DNA from: a virus
IMG/VR virus record: IMGVR_UViG_3300030451_003072
Coordinates: 1 to 28,265 of that record
Strand: one strand, 5' to 3'
DNA: 28,265 nucleotides
Both the position numbers and the translations under genes were made by a program. Shown piece by piece: positions 1,704 to 26,295 of the stretch. The notes under the pieces are model-generated. The model did no database searches, was not told the DNA's origin, and saw only the letters and a list, made by a program, of their open reading frames with translations. Each line of letters begins with the position of its first letter. Within the stretch, counting starts at the first letter, position 1.

Positions 1704-1871
1704 ATGAGTAAAATGAAAGAGATACATATAGATATTGAGAATATCTTTGGGAGTGTGGAGAACTATAACGAGGTTTGTTATGAGTTGGATATTGATAAGC
1801 AAGATGATATCTATTATCGACCACATGATGTAAAAGCAATGGTAGAAAGAGGGAGTAACATGAATGGCTAG
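1704..1871 (+). CDS. Small acidic hypothetical protein, 55 aa
   Basis: ATG 1704 follows GAGGGGAA (1691-1698), a usable ribosome binding site. The product starts MSKMKEIHIDIENIFG and is acidic (many Asp/Glu), without cysteines or hydrophobic segments. Its stop codon overlaps the start of the following membrane-peptide gene by 8 nt, which argues for co-translation. Not recognised. Confidence 0.55.
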   Translation: MSKMKEIHIDIENIFGSVENYNEVCYELDIDKQDDIYYRPHDVKAMVERGSNMNG

Positions 1872-2004
1872 GTTATCAAATTTGTATAGAAAGCTGAAAT
1901 ATAGTGGAATCTTGCAAAGTGTAATATATTATGTTACAATGGTAGTATTAGTTATGGGGATAATTTTTTCTATGTTTGTGTTGTGGTTTTTAACACGAAT
2001 GTAG
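1864..2004 (+). CDS. Small single-pass membrane protein, 46 aa
   Basis: The frame from ATG 1864 has GGGAG (1851-1855) at a proper distance. The peptide has a basic N-terminus (MARLSNLYRKLK) followed by one strong hydrophobic span at about residues 20-43 and a short LTRM end. By the positive-inside rule the N-terminus should face the cytoplasm. The size suits many small phage inner-membrane proteins. A holin is possible but unlikely in an early, non-lysis context. Its coding sequence contains the promoter at 1912-1940, so part of the frame doubles as a regulatory region for the downstream MoxR gene. Confidence 0.5.
   Translation: MARLSNLYRKLKYSGILQSVIYYVTMVVLVMGIIFSMFVLWFLTRM
1912..1940 (+). 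promoter_or_regulatory. Probable sigma70 promoter upstream of the MoxR/VWA genes
   Basis: TTGCAA (1912-1917) is followed after exactly 17 bp by TACAAT (1935-1940). TG at 1932-1933 stands one base before the -10 box, giving an extended -10. Transcription would start near 1947 and give a leader of about 110 nt containing the palindrome at 2014-2031. The spacer contains GTGTAAT (1919-1925), whose reverse complement ATTACAC occurs at the same place in the promoter at 13089-13117. Confidence 0.55.
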
Positions 2005-2013
2005 ATTTCAACC

Positions 2014-2031
2014 TCCCTCGTATACGAGGGA
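2014..2031. promoter_or_regulatory. Perfect 18-bp palindrome, operator or 5'-leader hairpin
   Basis: TCCCTCGTATACGAGGGA reads identically on both strands. It is GC-rich against an AT-rich background. It lies between the small membrane gene's stop (2004) and the ribosome binding site (2042-2047) of the MoxR gene. As DNA it could bind a dimeric repressor. As RNA it would fold into a 7-bp stem with a TATA loop in the leader, stabilising the mRNA or affecting translation. No T-tract follows, so it is not a typical terminator. Confidence 0.55.
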
Positions 2032-2041
2032 ACAAACAAGT

Positions 2042-2065
2042 AAGGAGAACTTAATATGGCTACAA
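2042..2065 (+). repeat. 24-nt repeated translation-start module, copy 1
   Basis: The 24 bases running from the ribosome binding site through the first four codons of the MoxR gene (AAGGAGAACTTAATATG and on to 2065) recur exactly at 4483-4506 before the 392-aa gene. The flanking bases differ on both sides. Both proteins therefore begin Met-Ala-Thr. Shorter versions (AAGGAGAAC) precede the genes at 408 and 13152. Confidence 0.75.
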
Positions 2066-3195
2066 AAACTAAAATTCTTGAGATGTCTGATATCGAGATA
2101 ATTGATACAGCAATCGCTATGCGTGATGCAGAACTTAATCTTGGCATCAAACCAAAGACAATGACAATTAGAGGGGTAATGGGTAGTGGTAAAACTACAA
2201 TCCCAAAGAGAATCGCAGATAGACTAGGTCTAAAGTTAGTTGTGGTATCTCTACCTACTCAAGCACTTGGTGATACAGGCAATCCAATCGTCAAAGAGAT
2301 TGATGGTGTAAAGGTTACTACATTTGCTTGGAATGAATACTTTCAATTCCATAAGGGTGAAGCATTTGTATTATGCCTTGATGAGAAAGACAAGGGTATG
2401 TTGGAAGTGCGTAATCAATTTCTTGATGTTATCCAAAAGGGTGAGATAAATGGTGTGCCACTACCTAAAGGCACTATCGTAGTATGTACATCAAACCTTG
2501 AGGGCGAGGGAGTTGGAGATACTATTTATGCACATGAGTTAGATAGAGAAATAGCTGTCAAGATGAAAGACCCATCATTAAATAGTTTGCTTGAATATAA
2601 TTCTGAATTACCAATAGAGCAAAAGTATGACCCATTGGTGTTGGCATGGGCTAAAGAGTACGAGGGAAATGTATTTGAAAACTATCGTAGAAATCCAAAT
2701 ACAGTATGGGGTATTAATCCTAATACACCTACAAAGAAAGGTCTTTCAATGCGTGGGTTACATCAAGCATCTGACATCTTTAAGATCAGAGATAAATTAC
2801 CTAGCACAAATGCTTTCGAGTGTTTGATTACAGGTCTGATCGGTGATGTTGCAGGGTTGAGTCTGTTGGACTTCCAAAAGCATGAGGATAAACTTGTACC
2901 TATTGATGATATAAAGAATAATCCTGAAAAGGCTAGGATATCTGAAGATGCGATTGGTAAGTTATTGACTATGTTTAACTTATCACAGATGGTTGAGGAT
3001 AAAGAATCTTTAGCTACATTCAGTAAGTATATTGGTAGGTATGAGGAGAGGGAGTTTAAAACTCTATTTACTAAAACTTTAACTAGAAACAAATCTTTAC
3101 ATAAACATCTATTTTCTTGCAAACCTTACATGGCTATCGTTAAGGAATGTGGTAAGGGTGCAGTTGGTCTTGGTGAGAATATAGATTTAGTATAA
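2056..3195 (+). CDS. MoxR-like AAA+ ATPase, 379 aa
   Basis: The Walker A loop is GVMGSGKTT (residues 40-48), Walker B is FVLCLDE (104-110), and a sensor-1-like strand with Asn is VVCTSN (142-147). A charged stretch after it (ELDREIAVKM, 161-170) fits the arginine-finger region. This is the arrangement of MoxR-type AAA+ ATPases, which act as chaperones or remodelling motors and are usually paired with a VWA-domain protein. Such a protein follows only 10 nt downstream (3206), which strongly supports the call. ATG 2056 has the strong binding site AAGGAG at 2042-2047. No membrane segment is visible, so it is cytoplasmic. The substrate is unknown; remodelling of a host or phage complex is inferred. 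Confidence 0.85.
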   Translation: MATKTKILEMSDIEIIDTAIAMRDAELNLGIKPKTMTIRGVMGSGKTTIPKRIADRLGLKLVVVSLPTQALGDTGNPIVKEIDGVKVTTFAWNEYFQFHKGEAFVLCLDEKDKGMLEVRNQFLDVIQKGEINGVPLPKGTIVVCTSNLEGEGVGDTIYAHELDREIAVKMKDPSLNSLLEYNSELPIEQKYDPLVLAWAKEYEGNVFENYRRNPNTVWGINPNTPTKKGLSMRGLHQASDIFKIRDKLPSTNAFECLITGLIGDVAGLSLLDFQKHEDKLVPIDDIKNNPEKARISEDAIGKLLTMFNLSQMVEDKESLATFSKYIGRYEEREFKTLFTKTLTRNKSLHKHLFSCKPYMAIVKECGKGAVGLGENIDLV

Positions 3196-3205
3196 AGGGG
3201 GATAT

Positions 3206-4471
3206 ATGGAACAGAGGAGAGCAGAGGATATTATATCCACACTCAATTCGCAGATAAGTGATAACCCTACATTCTGTAGGTTAATGCGAGTTATGGTACA
3301 GACACCCTTCACAGTCTTGCGTGAGGGTGATAAAAAGTACGAGCAGATTCGCACAGGTGCTACTGATGGTAAGATGGTGTACTACAACATTGATTTCTTC
3401 AAGAAATTAAGTGTATCTGAACAGAGGTTTCTTATCTGTCACGAAACAATGCACAATGCTTTAATGCACATGGTGTTTTATCTTGATTATTTTAAGAAAA
3501 GCCCAATGCTTACTAATGTAGCTATGGATATGGTGGTTAATAATATTCTTATAAAGTGGAATAAGTTACATCTGAAGTATTGTAAACTGAATGGTTTACC
3601 TCAAGAAGATTTCATCACACTTATCGAGGGTGGTTGTTACGACCCAAAGTATGACAATTGGAGTTTTGCCCAAGTCTTTGATGACTTATATAAAGAGGGT
3701 GAAGAGGATAAGGATAAACAAGATGGTGATGGTGATGGTGATGGTCAAGGTAATGGTCAGGGTAAGCCACTTGATGACCACCTTTGGGAAGAGGCTAAAG
3801 AAATCTTTGACAACCCTGAAAAAGCAGAGAAGATGGCAGAAGAAATGCGTCAGGCACTTCGATCAGGTGAAGCCCTTGCAGGTGTCAGGTCAGGTCTGAA
3901 AGATGGTGACTTGGAAAAACTATTTGAAGTTAAGACTGATTGGATAGAAGTCTTGCGTAACTTTATTGTCAGTAGTTGTTCAGGGTATGGTGAGGTTACA
4001 AGACAAAGACCTAATCGTAGATCGCTAGGCAACGAGATACTCATGCCAAGTATTCAGAGTAAATCTGTTGGTGATGTTGTTATTGGCTATGATGCGTCAG
4101 GCTCTGTGCTATGTGATAAAGAACTTGCTACACGATTTGCGTCAGAGATAAAAAAGATTTGTGAGCAAGTCAAACCAAAATCACTTCGAGTGTTGTATTG
4201 GGATACTAATGTTGAGAAAGTTGAGTTTTATAAACACAACAAACTTTCTCGCTTTGAGGTCGAGGGGAGACCGAGAGGTGGTGGTGGTACTTCACCTGAT
4301 TGTGTTCCTAAATACTTGAAAGAAAACAATATCCGACCACAGGTAGTTATCATGCTGACTGATGGTTGGGTTGATGGTTGGGGTGATTGGAGTAAAGTTA
4401 ATGCACCTTTACTGTGGTGTATTAAGGGGAGTGATGACACCCCTGATGTTGGAAAAACAGTTGCGATTTAA
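3206..4471 (+). CDS. Metallopeptidase-like (DUF2201) plus VWA-domain protein, 421 aa
   Basis: The N-terminal half carries HETMH (79-83), an HExxH zinc-protease signature, in a context (RFLICHETMHNALMH) typical of the putative metallopeptidase domain found before VWA-like domains (DUF2201 family). A disordered acidic linker follows (DGDGDGDGQGNGQG, 173-186), encoded partly by four tandem GATGGT units. The C-terminal half is a VWA domain with the metal-site residues DASGS (296-300), Thr362 (in GGGGTSP) and Asp386 (in LTDG). Family knowledge: such proteins work with a MoxR ATPase, here 10 nt upstream. Binding site GGGGG at 3196-3200. Whether the protease is active cannot be told from sequence, although the HExxH residues are intact. 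Confidence 0.85.
   Translation: MEQRRAEDIISTLNSQISDNPTFCRLMRVMVQTPFTVLREGDKKYEQIRTGATDGKMVYYNIDFFKKLSVSEQRFLICHETMHNALMHMVFYLDYFKKSPMLTNVAMDMVVNNILIKWNKLHLKYCKLNGLPQEDFITLIEGGCYDPKYDNWSFAQVFDDLYKEGEEDKDKQDGDGDGDGQGNGQGKPLDDHLWEEAKEIFDNPEKAEKMAEEMRQALRSGEALAGVRSGLKDGDLEKLFEVKTDWIEVLRNFIVSSCSGYGEVTRQRPNRRSLGNEILMPSIQSKSVGDVVIGYDASGSVLCDKELATRFASEIKKICEQVKPKSLRVLYWDTNVEKVEFYKHNKLSRFEVEGRPRGGGGTSPDCVPKYLKENNIRPQVVIMLTDGWVDGWGDWSKVNAPLLWCIKGSDDTPDVGKTVAI
3722..3745 (+). repeat. Four tandem GATGGT hexamers in the VWA gene linker
   Basis: Four exact in-frame copies of GATGGT encode Asp-Gly pairs in the flexible linker between the metallopeptidase-like and VWA domains. Copy number could vary by slippage without breaking the frame. 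Asp-Gly linkers of this kind can bind calcium, but nothing shows that here. Confidence 0.7.
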
Positions 4472-4482
4472 TTTAATTTAAA

Positions 4483-4506
4483 AAGGAGAACTTAATATGG
4501 CTACAA
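4483..4506 (+). repeat. 24-nt repeated translation-start module, copy 2
   Basis: Exact copy of bases 2042-2065, covering the ribosome binding site and first codons of the 392-aa gene. The preceding bases are a low-complexity ATTTAATTTAATTTAAAA stretch. Two long identical blocks at separate gene starts suggest duplication or recombination of start modules, or selection for the same translation level. Confidence 0.75.
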
Positions 4507-5675
4507 CTAAAATAAAAAGTGGTAATCTTGTGCATTTGTTAAGAATCGCATTTGATGAAGTAAATAAGAAGTTTAAGGATAAGAAAGTTGAGTTTCAAGT
4601 GAGGTGTGCTTACAATCGTAAGCCCATGCAAATGGAAGAGTTTACCAAAAAACAAAATGAGTTTTGGTTAAATGTTGCTGAACATGGTCGTGACCCAAGT
4701 GTAAAGCTAGATGTAGTTAGAAAAGAAGCGATACATAACAAACCTAATCTACACGCATTTCCTGTAGGGTTTAATTTTGAGAAAGATTATTTACCCCTCA
4801 AGGTTGAGAATATTTTAAATACGAAAGATTATGATGAAGAGATTTTTGATATTCTTGAGATAAAAGAGAGGTATGCTAAAAGTCCTGATTCTAGTACCTA
4901 TTACCTAAAGACTAATTTTACTGATATCTTTAGAAGTTGTGAGGTAATGTTTCTTGTAGATAAAACTTTAGTTGGTTCAGTAGCAGTTAGTGTTTCTTAT
5001 AGAGGTGGATTTGGTGAAAGGTTTGAACTTTATTTTAAAGATAGTAAAGGGTATACGAGAGGTTCTACTGTAGTACCTAAAACTATCAGAAGGTTTATCC
5101 AAACACATATGTACGCATCTGAAAGAACAGAAGAAATGTTTTTTGAACAGAAGTTAAAACAATTAGAGAGTAGGTATCACGATAATCGTAGTTATAATGA
5201 TGAGGGTACAAAGGCAAGAACTTTTAGAGATATTAAACATGATATACAAAGCCTTGTATCAAAATACAATTTTAAAACAGATGAAGATAACTATAACAAC
5301 TTTGGTAATACATTAAATAATATAATTAATATGAAAGAGGGTGGTGAATACCATTCGGATTTACTTCTTTTTTCAGAAGCATATCAAGAGTTGCTAGACG
5401 AATATAACTATCTAGATTATTTCATAGATAAAAATACCCCTAACTCACGAAAGAATATTAAGTTTATTAACTATGTTAATAATAAGTATTCGATTGTTTC
5501 AGGTACAGATAGTGGTGCGTATGTTAGGGATTATTATGATTCACCTGAAGATTTTCCTGAAGAAATAAGAGATAAGTATGCACTATTGTCTACAAGTGAC
5601 GAGGATATTTTTTATGTTGGGTTTATATTAGGTGATTGTTACGCAGTTACCCTTGATCGAAAAGAAGGAGAATAA
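4497..5675 (+). CDS. Orphan hypothetical protein, 392 aa
   Basis: The protein starts MATTKIKSGN after a strong AAGGAG site at 4483-4488. It is charged and Tyr/Asp/Lys rich, with no membrane segment, Walker loop, zinc motif or nuclease signature I can see. A central stretch (VDKTLVGSVAVSVSYRGGFG and the following strand-like residues) suggests a beta-rich domain, and the later part (residues about 210-330) is helical and Asn-rich. It sits 25 nt after the VWA gene and shares its start module with the MoxR gene, so it is probably expressed with that pair and may be a partner or substrate. That is inference from position only. Confidence 0.75.
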   Translation: MATTKIKSGNLVHLLRIAFDEVNKKFKDKKVEFQVRCAYNRKPMQMEEFTKKQNEFWLNVAEHGRDPSVKLDVVRKEAIHNKPNLHAFPVGFNFEKDYLPLKVENILNTKDYDEEIFDILEIKERYAKSPDSSTYYLKTNFTDIFRSCEVMFLVDKTLVGSVAVSVSYRGGFGERFELYFKDSKGYTRGSTVVPKTIRRFIQTHMYASERTEEMFFEQKLKQLESRYHDNRSYNDEGTKARTFRDIKHDIQSLVSKYNFKTDEDNYNNFGNTLNNIINMKEGGEYHSDLLLFSEAYQELLDEYNYLDYFIDKNTPNSRKNIKFINYVNNKYSIVSGTDSGAYVRDYYDSPEDFPEEIRDKYALLSTSDEDIFYVGFILGDCYAVTLDRKEGE

Positions 5676-7833: not shown

Positions 7834-9641
7834 AGTTATTAACTATTGATTTTGAAACTTACTATGACAGACAATTTTCGTTGTCTAAAATAACAACAGA
7901 AGAATATATAAGAAGTGATGAGTTTGAGACTATTGGTGTAGCAGTCAAAGAAGATGGTGGAGAAACAAAATGGTATACAGGAACTCACCAAGAAATAAAA
8001 AAAGCCTTAAAGCAATATGATTGGGAAAATTCAGGTTGTTTGGCTCATAACGCAATGTTTGATTCTGCCATACTCACATGGTTGTTTGGCATAAAACCAA
8101 AGATGTGGTTCGATACTATGAGTATGGGTAGAGCATTGATTGGCTCATTCCATTCTGTATCCCTTGCGAATATGTCAAAGTACTACGAGGTTGGTGAGAA
8201 AGGCACAGAAGTTTTAAATGCGTTAGGTAAAAGAAGATTAGACTTTACAGAAGAAGAACTAGAAAGATATGCACAGTATTGCATTAATGATGTTGAGTTA
8301 ACTTATACTTTATTTTGTAAGATAGTCAAAGGATTCCCACATTCAGAATTACGGCTCATAGACCTAACAATAAAAATGTTTAGTGAGCCAATACTAGAAG
8401 TAGATAGTCAATTATTAAAAGAAGAATTAAAAACTATAGAAGAAAAGAAACAATCCTTACTAAATCAATCAGGTATGGATTCAAAAACCCTTGCTAGTAA
8501 TAAACAATTTGCAGAGTTTCTAGAATCTAGAGGTGTTAAAGTACCAATTAAAATAAGTCCAAGAACAGGTAAGGAAACATTTGCTTTAGCAAAGTCTGAC
8601 GAGGGCTTTAAAGAACTATTAAACCACGAAGATGAAGAAATACAAATAGTCGCAAGTGCAAGAAAAAATATAAAAAGCACAATCAATCAAACAAGAATAG
8701 AAAGATTTTTAGGTATAGCAGAGAGAGGTTCGCTACCTGTACCCCTGCGTTATTACGCCGCCCACACAGGTAGATGGGGTGGGTCTGATAAAATCAATCT
8801 ACAAAACCTACCAAAAAATAAAATACGAGAAGGTATTACTGTTCCATCAGGATACACACTTATAGATGCAGATTCCTCGCAAATTGAAGCAAGAGTTTTG
8901 TGTTGGTTTGCAGGTCAAGAAGATATGCTAGAAGCATTTAGAACAGGTCAAGACAACTACAAAATCATGGCAAGTAAAATCTATAATAAAGCAGTTGAAG
9001 ATGTAACACCTGCCGAGAGATTTATTGGTAAGACTTGCGTGTTAGGTTGTGGGTATCAGATGAGTTATTCTAAATTCAGAGGTACGATTAAAAATGCAGG
9101 GGTAGACATGACAGAAGAAGAATGTAAAAAGATTGTCTATGCTTATCGAGATTCTGCCAATCATATAGCAAGGTTATGGTACGAGGGTCAAGAATTACTA
9201 AAAAGTTTATGTCGAGGGCAAGTATCTGCCTTTGGTAAAGAGGGAATTGCTGTTGCTTTTCCTGATTCAATTCAATTACCAAACAATATGTTTATACACT
9301 ATAAAAATCTACAATCACATATAGTTGATGGTAGAAATGAAATAACCTATCGAGGAAGAGGTGGGGAGGCTAAATATATTTATGGTGGGAAACTAACAGA
9401 GAATGTAGTACAAGGATTAGCAAGAATTTTAATAGCAGATCAAATGTTGTTAATAGCCAAAAAGTACAAAGTTGTATTTACTGTGCATGATGCTGTTGCT
9501 TGTGTTGTACCTGTCGAAGAAACAGAAAGAGCAATGGAGTATGTTAAGAAATGTATGAGTTTTGTACCAGCTTGGGCAAAAGGGCTACCCCTAACTTGTG
9601 AGGTAGGTTGTGGGAAAAGTTATGGGGGGATATCAAAATGA
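7830..9641 (+). CDS. Family A DNA polymerase with 3'-5' exonuclease, 603 aa
   Basis: The N-terminal proofreading exonuclease has DFET (7-10), AHNAMFD (72-78) and YCIND (150-154), the DEDDy set. The polymerase half has motif A DADSSQIEAR (346-355), motif B RFIGKTCVLGCGYQMS (397-412) and motif C VHDA (552-555). These are the catalytic landmarks of E. coli Pol I-like enzymes and all key residues are present. Length is close to phage polymerases lacking the 5'-3' exonuclease, and none is seen. The residue matching Pol I Phe762 is Leu405. TTG 7830 is the start, overlapping the previous stop (TTGA) with AAAGGGG at 7818-7824. It is the replicative polymerase of this phage, working with the primase-helicase at 14670 and the SSB candidate at 13553. 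Confidence 0.95.
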   Translation: MKLLTIDFETYYDRQFSLSKITTEEYIRSDEFETIGVAVKEDGGETKWYTGTHQEIKKALKQYDWENSGCLAHNAMFDSAILTWLFGIKPKMWFDTMSMGRALIGSFHSVSLANMSKYYEVGEKGTEVLNALGKRRLDFTEEELERYAQYCINDVELTYTLFCKIVKGFPHSELRLIDLTIKMFSEPILEVDSQLLKEELKTIEEKKQSLLNQSGMDSKTLASNKQFAEFLESRGVKVPIKISPRTGKETFALAKSDEGFKELLNHEDEEIQIVASARKNIKSTINQTRIERFLGIAERGSLPVPLRYYAAHTGRWGGSDKINLQNLPKNKIREGITVPSGYTLIDADSSQIEARVLCWFAGQEDMLEAFRTGQDNYKIMASKIYNKAVEDVTPAERFIGKTCVLGCGYQMSYSKFRGTIKNAGVDMTEEECKKIVYAYRDSANHIARLWYEGQELLKSLCRGQVSAFGKEGIAVAFPDSIQLPNNMFIHYKNLQSHIVDGRNEITYRGRGGEAKYIYGGKLTENVVQGLARILIADQMLLIAKKYKVVFTVHDAVACVVPVEETERAMEYVKKCMSFVPAWAKGLPLTCEVGCGKSYGGISK

Positions 9642-9988
9642 GTGATCTATCTTATCTAGCAGGTTTGTTTGATGGTGAGGGGAGTGTGAGGTATAAGTGT
9701 ATGCCACGCACAAGACACGATAGACCGAAAAAGCCAATCTACAATACATGGGAGATTAGGTTAGAAATAGCCATGACAGACAAAAAGATAATTGATTGGG
9801 TTCATAAGTTAGTGGGAGTTGGAACTGCAAACCCACGAAAAGTCAAAAAAGGTATGAAGCCACAATGGAGATGGATATGCAGATACAGAGATGCGTTACG
9901 GGTATGTAAATTACTTTCTCCATACTTAAAAATAAAGAACGGCGAAGTAGAAAAAATTATTAACCATTATAAAAGGAGAGGTAAATGA
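9638..9988 (+). CDS. Free-standing LAGLIDADG homing endonuclease, 116 aa
   Basis: YLAGLFDGEGSV (6-17) is a clear LAGLIDADG motif with its acidic residues, followed by beta-strand residues (WEIRLEIAMTDKKIIDWV) and a basic, Trp/Arg-rich stretch (KPQWRWICRYRDALRV) typical of the DNA-binding face. One motif in about 116 residues means it would act as a homodimer. I chose ATG 9638 over TTG 9608 because GGGGGG (9624-9629) precedes it and it makes the usual 4-nt ATGA overlap with the polymerase stop. It is not inside an intron or intein, as the polymerase is uninterrupted. It likely cuts related phage DNA lacking it, spreading itself or its flanks. Confidence 0.85.
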   Translation: MSDLSYLAGLFDGEGSVRYKCMPRTRHDRPKKPIYNTWEIRLEIAMTDKKIIDWVHKLVGVGTANPRKVKKGMKPQWRWICRYRDALRVCKLLSPYLKIKNGEVEKIINHYKRRGK

Positions 9989-11522: not shown

Positions 11523-13082
11523 ATGCAAGTAGTTAAAGATAGGGGGTTACTAGCTAGAGTGTATAACCCCGAACGCATAACAGACACTATTTCAAAAAGT
11601 AAAATAATTAAAAAACAGGGGGATATTTACGAAGTGTTAATACATTGGGATTTGGAGAACGCACAAAAATTAGCAGGTATAGGTTTAAAGAATGTTATCT
11701 CTACTATTGATAGGGATTATGAATATACGGGAATGCATAAACCTTTTGACCATCAGAAAAAGACTGCATCATTTTTAACATTATATAAAAAAGCATTTTG
11801 TTTTAACGAGCAAGGCACAGGTAAAACTATGTCAGTAATTTGGGCATGTGACTATTTAATGAAAATGAAACAGATAAAAAGAGTATTAATAGTTTGCCCT
11901 TTATCTATTATGCAATCGGCATGGCAAAACGATATTATGAAAACTACGATCCATAGAACCTGTGATATTGCCTATGGCACGGTCGATAAAAGGAAGAAAA
12001 TATTAGAACAAGGCGCTGAATTTACTATTATAAATTTTGATGGTGTAGAAATATTAGAGAATTATATAAAATACGAGGGAGGGTTTGATTTAATTATAAT
12101 TGACGAAGCTAACGCATATAAAAATCCACAAACAAAAAGATGGAAGGCAATGAATAAAATTATACAAGCGAATCCTCATATGAGATTATGGATGTTAACA
12201 GGTACACCGGCGGCTCAATCACCTGTAGATGCTTATGGCTTGGCAAAATTAGTTAATCCAAATAAAGTACCTAGATTTTTAGGCGCATGGAAAGATAAAG
12301 TTATGTTGAAAGTATCTCAATTTACTTGGATACCTAAATCTAATTCTAGTGAGCAGGTGCATAGGGTGTTACAACCTGCGATACGATTCACAAAAGAAGA
12401 ATGTATGGACTTACCTGATATAACCTTTCAAACTAGAAAAGTACCACTTACAAAACAACAACAAAAATATTATAACGATATAAGAAATAGAATGTATATC
12501 GAAGCCGCTGATGAAGATATATCGGCTGTAAATGCCGCCGCTTTAATGCAAAAACTACTTCAGATAAGCTGTGGTGCGGTCTACTCGGATAGTAAAGAAA
12601 CCGTACGATTTGATGCTAAAGATAGGTTAAAAGTTATAAAAGAAATTATTGATGAAACTTCAAATAAAGCACTTATATTTGTGCCTTTTAGAAATGCGAT
12701 AGAAATGGTTAGTGAGTTTTTAAATAAGAAAAAAATTAATAATGCAATTATAAACGGTGCAGTTTCTGCAACAAAAAGAGCCGATATATTTAATAAGTTT
12801 CAAACAGAAGATGACCTAAAAGTATTAATTATCCAACCCCAATCAGCATCGCATGGAGTTACTTTAACTAGAGCAGATACGGTAGTTTGGTTTGGACCAA
12901 CAACAAGTTTAGAAACATATATCCAAGCTAATGCTAGGGTACATAGGGCAGGACAAGTTAATAAAACCACAATCATAAACATAGAAGGGAGCGCCATAGA
13001 AAAAAGAATATATACTCTATTAAAAAATAAAGAGAATATACATAATCAAATGATTGATTTATATAAACAAGAAATTAGTTAA
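11523..13082 (+). CDS. SNF2-family superfamily 2 helicase, 519 aa
   Basis: Two RecA-like lobes are visible: motif I EQGTGKT (96-102), motif II DEAN (194-197, in IIIDEANAYKNP), motif III LTGTP (225-229), and motif VI QANARVHRAGQ (468-478), the SNF2-type arginine-finger motif. The Q-tip region FDHQKKTASF lies before motif I. Phage SNF2-like proteins are DNA translocases and may act in recombination, fork remodelling or removal of bound proteins. The ATG directly follows the preceding stop (TAGATG), with no clear binding site, which suggests translational coupling. It ends 6 nt before the promoter at 13089, closing the transcription unit. Confidence 0.9.
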   Translation: MQVVKDRGLLARVYNPERITDTISKSKIIKKQGDIYEVLIHWDLENAQKLAGIGLKNVISTIDRDYEYTGMHKPFDHQKKTASFLTLYKKAFCFNEQGTGKTMSVIWACDYLMKMKQIKRVLIVCPLSIMQSAWQNDIMKTTIHRTCDIAYGTVDKRKKILEQGAEFTIINFDGVEILENYIKYEGGFDLIIIDEANAYKNPQTKRWKAMNKIIQANPHMRLWMLTGTPAAQSPVDAYGLAKLVNPNKVPRFLGAWKDKVMLKVSQFTWIPKSNSSEQVHRVLQPAIRFTKEECMDLPDITFQTRKVPLTKQQQKYYNDIRNRMYIEAADEDISAVNAAALMQKLLQISCGAVYSDSKETVRFDAKDRLKVIKEIIDETSNKALIFVPFRNAIEMVSEFLNKKKINNAIINGAVSATKRADIFNKFQTEDDLKVLIIQPQSASHGVTLTRADTVVWFGPTTSLETYIQANARVHRAGQVNKTTIINIEGSAIEKRIYTLLKNKENIHNQMIDLYKQEIS

Positions 13083-14415: not shown

Positions 14416-14667
14416 ATGGCGCTATATTTGAAAACGCAACAGCGGATTGATTCTATCTTAAATGATAAAGATAAATTAAGTTTAGGGGAAACACTCTATG
14501 ACTTTCTTATTTTTATAAAAAATAATGGTCTGCAAATAAATTCTGTAGCTGAAGAATTAGGATTAACAAAAAAGACTATTTATAATTGGATAGAATGTAG
14601 AAGTAACCCAACAAAAAATACGATATCTAATATACAAAATTGGTTAGCTAGTAAACAGGAGCGCTAA
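14416..14667 (+). CDS. Small helix-turn-helix DNA-binding protein, 83 aa
   Basis: Residues 40-60 (QINSVAEELGLTKKTIYNWIE) form a clear helix-turn-helix with a recognition helix TKKTIYNWIE, followed by a Cro/CI-like continuation SNPTKNTISNIQNWL. The first 35 residues form a separate helical segment that may give dimer contacts. The start has a near-perfect Shine-Dalgarno, TAGGAGGTAAT (14405-14415). It stands alone between the G6/C6 hairpin and the primase-helicase gene. It is a candidate regulator of the two promoters and the palindrome in this window; that link is only inferred. Confidence 0.75.
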   Translation: MALYLKTQQRIDSILNDKDKLSLGETLYDFLIFIKNNGLQINSVAEELGLTKKTIYNWIECRSNPTKNTISNIQNWLASKQER

Positions 14668-25869: not shown

Positions 25870-26295
25870 TTATTTCCTTAACCAACGACAGTCATTTTTA
25901 TGCATTTCTAATATTATCAAATCGCCACCATTTTCATGCATATTTTTCCATCGAGTTTTTTCTCTAAACCCTAATTTTAAATCAAAATTTAACGCATGTA
26001 CATTCATGCTATTAATAACACCAATAAGCAAATCGACATGCAAAACATTAAAAGGAAAGTCAAAAGCAGCATACAATAACTGTCTCGGTCTTGTTTCATA
26101 TCCTCTAATGCTAGCAATATGCATTTGAACGCTTCTACCAAGAAAGTTGTTGTAGCCAACAACCCATCTAATGTAACCTTTTTTGTCCAACCAAACCAGA
26201 GTTTTAAGGTCCGGAGTGTATTGAACACCTGCTTCTTCATATAAAATCTTCTCTGCCGCTAAACGGTCTTCTTTCCTCCTTGGTATTATGACCAT
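25870..26295 (-). CDS. GNAT-fold / T7 gp13-like virion assembly protein, 141 aa
   Basis: The pattern of strands and helices (GYIRWVVGYNNFLGRSVQMH, then LHVDLLIGVINSMNVHALNF, then DLKLGFREKTRWKN) fits an acetyltransferase (GNAT)-type fold: the N/A-rich helix followed by LGF is typical. The length is almost that of T7 gp13 (138 aa), a virion assembly protein with the same kind of fold that is encoded just before the internal core genes, exactly the placement here. No canonical acetyl-CoA loop (RxxGxG/A) is visible, so enzymatic activity is doubtful. ATG 26295 follows the previous stop by one base and its binding site is weak. Confidence 0.7.
   Translation of the reverse strand: MVIIPRRKEDRLAAEKILYEEAGVQYTPDLKTLVWLDKKGYIRWVVGYNNFLGRSVQMHIASIRGYETRPRQLLYAAFDFPFNVLHVDLLIGVINSMNVHALNFDLKLGFREKTRWKNMHENGGDLIILEMHKNDCRWLRK

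Follow-up and report, generated by a model that had tools for sequence, protein, structure and literature searches.

Partner gene families around the MoxR ATPase and metallopeptidase-VWA gene pair of a marine phage

The stretch of DNA analyzed here (the window) comprises 28,265 bases of a marine phage, deposited in IMG/VR as virus record IMGVR_UViG_3300030451_003072. It harbors genes for a MoxR-type AAA+ ATPase and for a protein combining a metallopeptidase-type domain with a VWA domain, followed by an open reading frame (ORF) of 392 amino acids (aa), ORF392. The presence of these cassette genes was confirmed at the following positions:

2056–3195, + strand: MoxR-type AAA+ ATPase, 379 aa; phrog_1297; counterpart of N4 gp24
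3206–4471, + strand: DUF2201-type metallopeptidase/VWA protein, 421 aa; PF13203 and PF09967; counterpart of N4 gp25
4497–5675, + strand: ORF392, 392 aa; by profile comparison a divergent member of family F5 in its C-terminal half (residues 231–380); cassette partner

A preliminary description of the region had reported a MoxR ATPase followed 10 nt on by an HExxH/VWA fusion, which was borne out by the ORF coordinates and the profile matches, and had regarded these genes, perhaps together with a small membrane protein, as a candidate for an undescribed phage system. The latter interpretation was partly supported, as the novelty lies in the wider cassette around the pair and not in the pair itself.

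The ATPase matched PF00004 barely over the cut-off and phrog_1297 (“ATPase”) at an E-value of 1.5e-31, and the top matches of its four-sequence profile against PDB were midasin (5e-11) and the MoxR structure 2r44 (2e-5). In the VWA protein, both the N-terminal putative metallopeptidase (PF13203, 2.9e-21) and the C-terminal VWA domain (PF09967, 9.3e-12) were above the cut-off. A search of solved structures with this DUF2201 protein returned nothing beyond weak MJ1213 matches (E about 0.05). Residue conservation was evaluated in alignments of diverse phage relatives, 22 for the VWA protein and 21 for MoxR. The HExxH motif (residues 79–83) and a complete metal ion-dependent adhesion site (MIDAS; D296-S298-S300, T362, and D386) were found in 22/22 VWA proteins, and an additional histidine, H88, was kept in 20/22. 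The Walker A (GVMGSGKT), Walker B (CLDE), sensor-1 (N147), and arginine (R164 and R233) residues of the window MoxR were retained in 19–21 of the 21 relatives. Owing to the conservation of the catalytic, MIDAS, Walker, and sensor residues, both proteins look active.

The VWA protein was detected by tblastn in at least 391 phage records, mostly 70–80 kb phages of Vibrio, Pseudomonas, Klebsiella, and enterics, several of which belong to the Schitoviridae; jumbo phages and the cyanophage S-TIM5 were also matched. The ATPase gene adjoined or lay near the VWA gene wherever inspected, with a MoxR profile match in 21 of 22 phages. Like pairs of the N4 gp24/gp25 type, the window pair consists of neighboring genes for an ATPase (PHROG 1297) and a vWFA protein (PHROG 1314), and gp24 (ATPase) and gp25 (vWFA) are among the 14 core genes of N4-like phages (PMC4193335; PMC2784036). 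As in the window, the N4 genes encode a MoxR-type ATPase and then a metallopeptidase-VWA protein, with helicase and DNA polymerase genes close by; the VWA protein, however, is about 25–30% identical to that of the window, and the N4-like loci examined had no ORF392/F5 homolog nearby. The same gene pair with the identical domain fusion was described in group 2.2 jumbo phages, for which a role in virion assembly was proposed; the passage on the pair in that article does not report DUF3150, F5, or F7 partners (Iyer et al., 2021; PMC7824862). The pair is therefore not undescribed.

Many phage records list the metallopeptidase-VWA protein as “HNH endonuclease” (PHROG 1314). This function was rejected, as the protein gave no HNH match and the label comes attached to the PHROG. 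Several phages (Pollock, SBP1, and K479) do carry genuine HNH genes next to, between, or within the two genes of the pair, and in N4-like phages HNH homing endonucleases can interrupt or flank these genes. In phage Pollock (L033, 2094–3882), the MoxR gene is split, with an HNH homing endonuclease gene within it, and MoxR was seen as two pieces in loci L092 and L111.

Scanning of IMG/VR with a VWA profile retrieved at least 495 viral contigs, and the cassette families, among them F5, F7/F15, and F10 as defined in this work, were derived by clustering the gene neighborhoods of the best 80. MoxR was located directly upstream of VWA in all 56 loci with enough upstream DNA. Family F2 (about 290 aa, 72 loci) corresponds to DUF3150, one member scoring over the Pfam cut-off and the others more weakly. 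F7 is the gene just before MoxR (35 loci), and F15, related to F7 by profile (8e-11), is the gene just after VWA (19 loci); F5 (about 285 aa) and F10 (about 180 aa) were present at 39 and 29 loci, respectively. Representatives of F5, F7/F15, and F10 gave no significant match in family searches. Among the 45 VWA loci with enough flanking DNA, DUF3150 was found in 41, F7/F15 in 35, F5 in 28, and either F5 or F10 in 41. The position of DUF3150 varied (after VWA in 49 cases, before MoxR in 22, and between the two in 2), but the gene remained within the cassette and also adjoined MoxR-VWA in the distant loci L011 and L013. The neighborhoods also contained recurrent families of DNA polymerase and VRR-NUC nuclease, both shared with the window.

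Direct searches with ORF392 revealed nothing significant in Pfam, PHROGs, NCBIfam, or 50,697 phage records. Comparison of its residues 231–380 with the F5 profile using hhalign gave an E-value of 2e-7, as against 0.23 for the reversed F5 alignment and 0.15 for the best of 20 column-shuffled controls. When the F5 profile was run with hmmsearch against the ORFs of both the window and the relative, ORF388 (2.6e-6) and ORF392 (5.9e-5) ranked first, and the next hit was at 0.094. The conserved tail common to ORF392 and the relative (SPEDLPEDIRDKY...VGF.LGD) is the C-terminal motif of F5, dLP..I..K...L.....VG...gd. On the basis of these profile comparisons, ORF392 is assigned to family F5 as a divergent member. 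A reverse scan with F5 alone covered 80 loci, of which the 36 with at least 4 kb of upstream DNA were testable; VWA, MoxR, and DUF3150 were present in 36/36. The VWA gene was upstream of F5 on the same strand, with gaps of 72 to 3107 nt. Genomic linkage was thus observed in both directions, and since every testable F5 locus carried MoxR, VWA, and DUF3150, ORF392 appears to belong to the cassette; the F5-only scan is the strongest evidence for this placement. The proposal that the 392-aa protein is part of the system accordingly holds at the level of the family, in that F5 travels with the MoxR/VWA pair in related genomes; the membrane gene, for which the same co-occurrence had been expected, does not (see below).

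Other assignments of ORF392 were rejected. A weak match to a terminase small subunit (0.0068) was put down to chance because it had no other support. Comparisons with P356, the product of a gene upstream of MoxR, and with a 285-aa protein of contig G003 gave no relation, and S-TIM5 gp54 (407 aa, 3′ of its VWA gene) was found to be unrelated.

Three further ORFs precede the MoxR gene:

617–1687, + strand: P356, tentatively a divergent member of family F7
1698–1871, + strand: 57-aa protein overlapping the membrane gene; in this lineage only
1864–2004, + strand: 46-aa single-pass membrane protein with one hydrophobic segment

P356 may be the window's version of F7, the gene usually found just 5′ of MoxR, as suggested by hhalign (1.4e-4), hmmsearch (0.008), and its position; shuffled controls gave 0.034 or more. 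Single-sequence comparison of P356 with the upstream gene of G003 gave nothing, the signal coming from the F7 family profile only. The 46-aa and 57-aa proteins were present in the window and two near relatives and were absent at about 78 other loci. The 46-aa membrane protein, previously suggested to be part of the system, is thus probably a passenger of a genus-level lineage. Elsewhere in the window, a small helix-turn-helix-like protein, about 50% identical in the nearest relative, is encoded among the replication genes (14416–14667) and could be a regulator. An HNH-endonuclease-like gene (phrog_5046, 9608–9988) overlaps the 3′ end of the DNA polymerase gene, and the nearest relative showed no counterpart of it. 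An acyltransferase-like gene (phrog_4470, 25870–26295) is located on the minus strand in the virion-type block.

The region 5′ of MoxR and of ORF392 contains the following elements:

2014–2031, no strand: 18-bp perfect palindrome TCCCTCGTATACGAGGGA, 5′ of the MoxR ribosome-binding site
2042–2065, + strand: 24-nt MoxR leader (ribosome-binding site and start), identical to the ORF392 leader
4483–4506, + strand: 24-nt ORF392 leader, identical to the MoxR leader

The “same start module” earlier ascribed to the MoxR and 392-aa genes is therefore real, as the 24-nt identity AAGGAGAACTTAATATGGCTACAA. The base just before the ATG is T in both window leaders and C in both leaders of the nearest relative. 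In several genomes, the gene that follows VWA (F15 or F10) likewise has a leader of 22–32 nt in common with MoxR or VWA; shared cassette-gene leaders were seen at L049, L057, L063, L071, L103, and L122. A promoter of its own, also claimed for the cassette, was not supported, since promoter-like matches in the region (12) were fewer than in shuffled sequences (18.5).

The palindrome TCCCTCGTATACGAGGGA is single-copy in the window. In the nearest relative, the homologous site with the same flanks carries another palindrome, TGCCGACATGTCGGCA, which is repeated in that relative. Genome-specific palindromes repeated at least 4 times (up to 11 copies) were found in 27 of the 80 loci and in contigs G003 and G004, as against at most 2 copies in block-shuffled controls; they form 17 stem families (stem of at least 6, centre of 0–4 nt, up to 14 permitted). 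Counted by stem family, a palindrome lay within 120 nt 5′ of MoxR in 11/16, of F7/F15 in 7/10, of VWA in 6/16, and of DUF3150 in 5/14, and the corresponding counts were 0/11 for DNA polymerase, 0/9 for RecB, and 0/10 for F5. Sites at gene starts were observed in L005 (2313, 2412, 4775, 6793, 7974, 10502, and 12310) as well as in L028, L030, and L050–L124. In L005, the copy at 12310–12327 lies in a 91-aa ORF where the window counterpart differs, as if inserted. The window palindrome was not a copy of a wider element, its exact matches in viral contigs being two unrelated contigs. The palindrome formerly thought to be the cassette's own is hence a genuine perfect 18-mer, but it belongs to a wider set of palindromes that are specific to each genome and scattered over gene starts; these may be operators, mobile elements, or hairpins formed in RNA.

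Sequence identity between the window and the nearest relative is 83–97% for MoxR, VWA, DNA polymerase, VRR-NUC, and the small genes, whereas it is 45% for ORF392 and P356. Identity at third codon positions was 0.51 for ORF392/P356 vs. 0.70–0.97 for the neighbors compared. As the divergence of these two genes extends to third codon positions, it suggests that alleles were brought in by exchange with a more distant lineage, and not merely that the genes evolve fast. In the same loci, the mean distance was 0.81 for F5 vs. 0.51 for VWA. MoxR and VWA distances correlated at 0.94, with a partial r of 0.75 after removal of DNA polymerase, and DUF3150 showed a partial r of 0.82–0.83 beyond DNA polymerase (no significance test was applied to either partial r). 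A conserved motor with diverged partners suggests that the partners may be adaptors or targets.

Cellular MoxR ATPases work with a VWA partner, as in RavA-ViaA, CobS-CobT, and NorQ-NorD, each acting on a dedicated, known target; none of these is known to have an HExxH-DUF2201 fusion of the window type. The explanation favored here, with somewhat less than even confidence, is that the phage cassette encodes an ATP-driven remodeling or proteolytic machine of early-to-middle infection, consisting of a conserved motor and exchangeable target-recognition partners. Its core would be a MoxR AAA+ hexamer with a MIDAS-bearing VWA co-chaperone that carries the metallopeptidase-type domain. Driven by ATP hydrolysis, this core would pull a target protein presented by the VWA domain and accessory proteins, and the HExxH domain could either cut the target or hold a metal. 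The partners would be ORF392 (F5), an F7/F15-type protein (tentatively P356 in the window), and, in most relatives, the DUF3150 protein; F5 and ORF392 are seen as putative target-recognition or adaptor parts because F5 is highly divergent and ORF392 was apparently exchanged between lineages. The machine would act on the replication machinery or on a complex of the host, and not on the virion. MoxR-vWA ternary conflict systems with VMAP similarly combine MoxR, VWA, and a third component, the third parts being diversified, but they are bacterial and possess effector and VMAP domains, none of which was found in the window (PMC7159879). No Pfam match to VMAP, iSTAND, effector, or peptidase-cascade domains was obtained in ORF392 or the partner families.

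Several observations weigh against a multi-component machine of this kind. In about 20 phages of greater distance, N4-like ones included, the genes around the pair included no homolog of ORF392, and F5 is therefore not a universal part; homologs of the 46-aa protein were likewise not found near the pair in about 20 distant phages. DUF3150 was found in neither the window nor the relative G001, so that the window lineage is without it or has replaced it. Both locus scans return the closest relatives, and near-duplicate contigs are present, some of them common to both scans. DNA polymerase distances also correlate (0.88–0.92), nearly as well as those within the cassette, and the cassette linkage owes part to shared descent. 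AlphaFold2 models from two-sequence alignments were useless (pLDDT, the predicted local distance difference test score, of 40 for ORF392 and 36 for P356). The absence in distant phages and the DNA polymerase correlation would be expected if MoxR-VWA alone formed the unit and ORF392, P356, and the DUF3150 protein were neighbors kept by descent, and the former had first suggested that ORF392 is a mere passenger, a view overturned by the F5 profile and the F5-only scan. The pair-only alternative is considered unlikely in view of the F5 co-occurrence across variable gaps, the mobility of DUF3150 within the cassette and its adjacency to MoxR-VWA in distant loci, and the leaders shared between cassette genes.

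A comparably low probability is assigned to a role in virion assembly or maturation, in which MoxR-VWA would fold, assemble, or proteolytically mature structural proteins. The proposal made for the same fusion type in the group 2.2 jumbo phages (PMC7824862) argues for it, as does the location of structural genes of RPP1 near its gp24/gp25 counterparts (PMC4193335). In Acidianus two-tailed virus, the MoxR protein p618 binds virion proteins and the VWA protein p892, which stimulates its ATPase activity (PMC4124505); this pair is, however, a virion component of an archaeal virus and is without a peptidase domain. The genomic setting argues against a virion role. The cassette precedes the DNA polymerase gene in SBP1, K479, PJNP053, RHph_TM27B, and the window, where the polymerase lies about 3.4 kb downstream of VWA, and in the window the pair and the virion-type module lie on opposite strands. 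N4 gp24 and gp25 are middle genes (PMC4193335), and some smaller Vibrio N4-like phages are reported to be without the gp24/gp25 fragment, there called rIIA/rIIB-like (PMC9525291), which would be odd for an essential assembly factor. Given its place among replication genes and the middle-gene status of its N4 counterparts, the cassette may act in early-to-middle infection, and its setting and timing fit host takeover or replication better than virion maturation.

Counter-defence, in which the machine would dismantle a host anti-phage complex with diversified partners naming the target, could be a special case of the remodeling machine favored above, but on its own it is thought rather improbable. 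It is in agreement with the diversification and exchange of the partners and with a cassette that is widespread yet reportedly lacking in some related phages. None of the partners was identified as a defence- or counter-defence-related gene, in the absence of a PADLOC scan. Metal-cofactor or metalloenzyme maturation is the role of several bacterial MoxR-VWA pairs, e.g., CoxD. A similar function in the phage (CobS/CobT-, NorQ/NorD-, or CoxD/CoxE-like), such as the activation of an enzyme of nucleotide metabolism, would suit an HExxH motif serving as a metal site and the proximity of the pair to thymidylate synthase in S-TIM5 and KP13-7, but it is also improbable, as there was no CobT/CobS family match (for CobT, up to an E-value of 1 in Pfam or 0.1 in NCBIfam) and no conserved metalloenzyme was found in the cassette.

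A more specific form of the remodeling machine, offered as a speculation, is an AAA+ remodeling protease built on gp24/gp25, in which swappable recognition partners (F5/ORF392, F7/F15, F10, and DUF3150) would redirect a conserved motor to different host complexes and co-regulation would be achieved via genome-specific palindromic leaders. Genes of the gp24/gp25 type belong to the core of N4-like phages and occur widely among uncultured viruses. Their link to DUF3150 and to the undescribed families F5 and F7/F15, each with its own gene slot, provides concrete, testable partners, and the apparent orphan ORF392 can be explained as a diverged member of F5, a family that travels with the pair.

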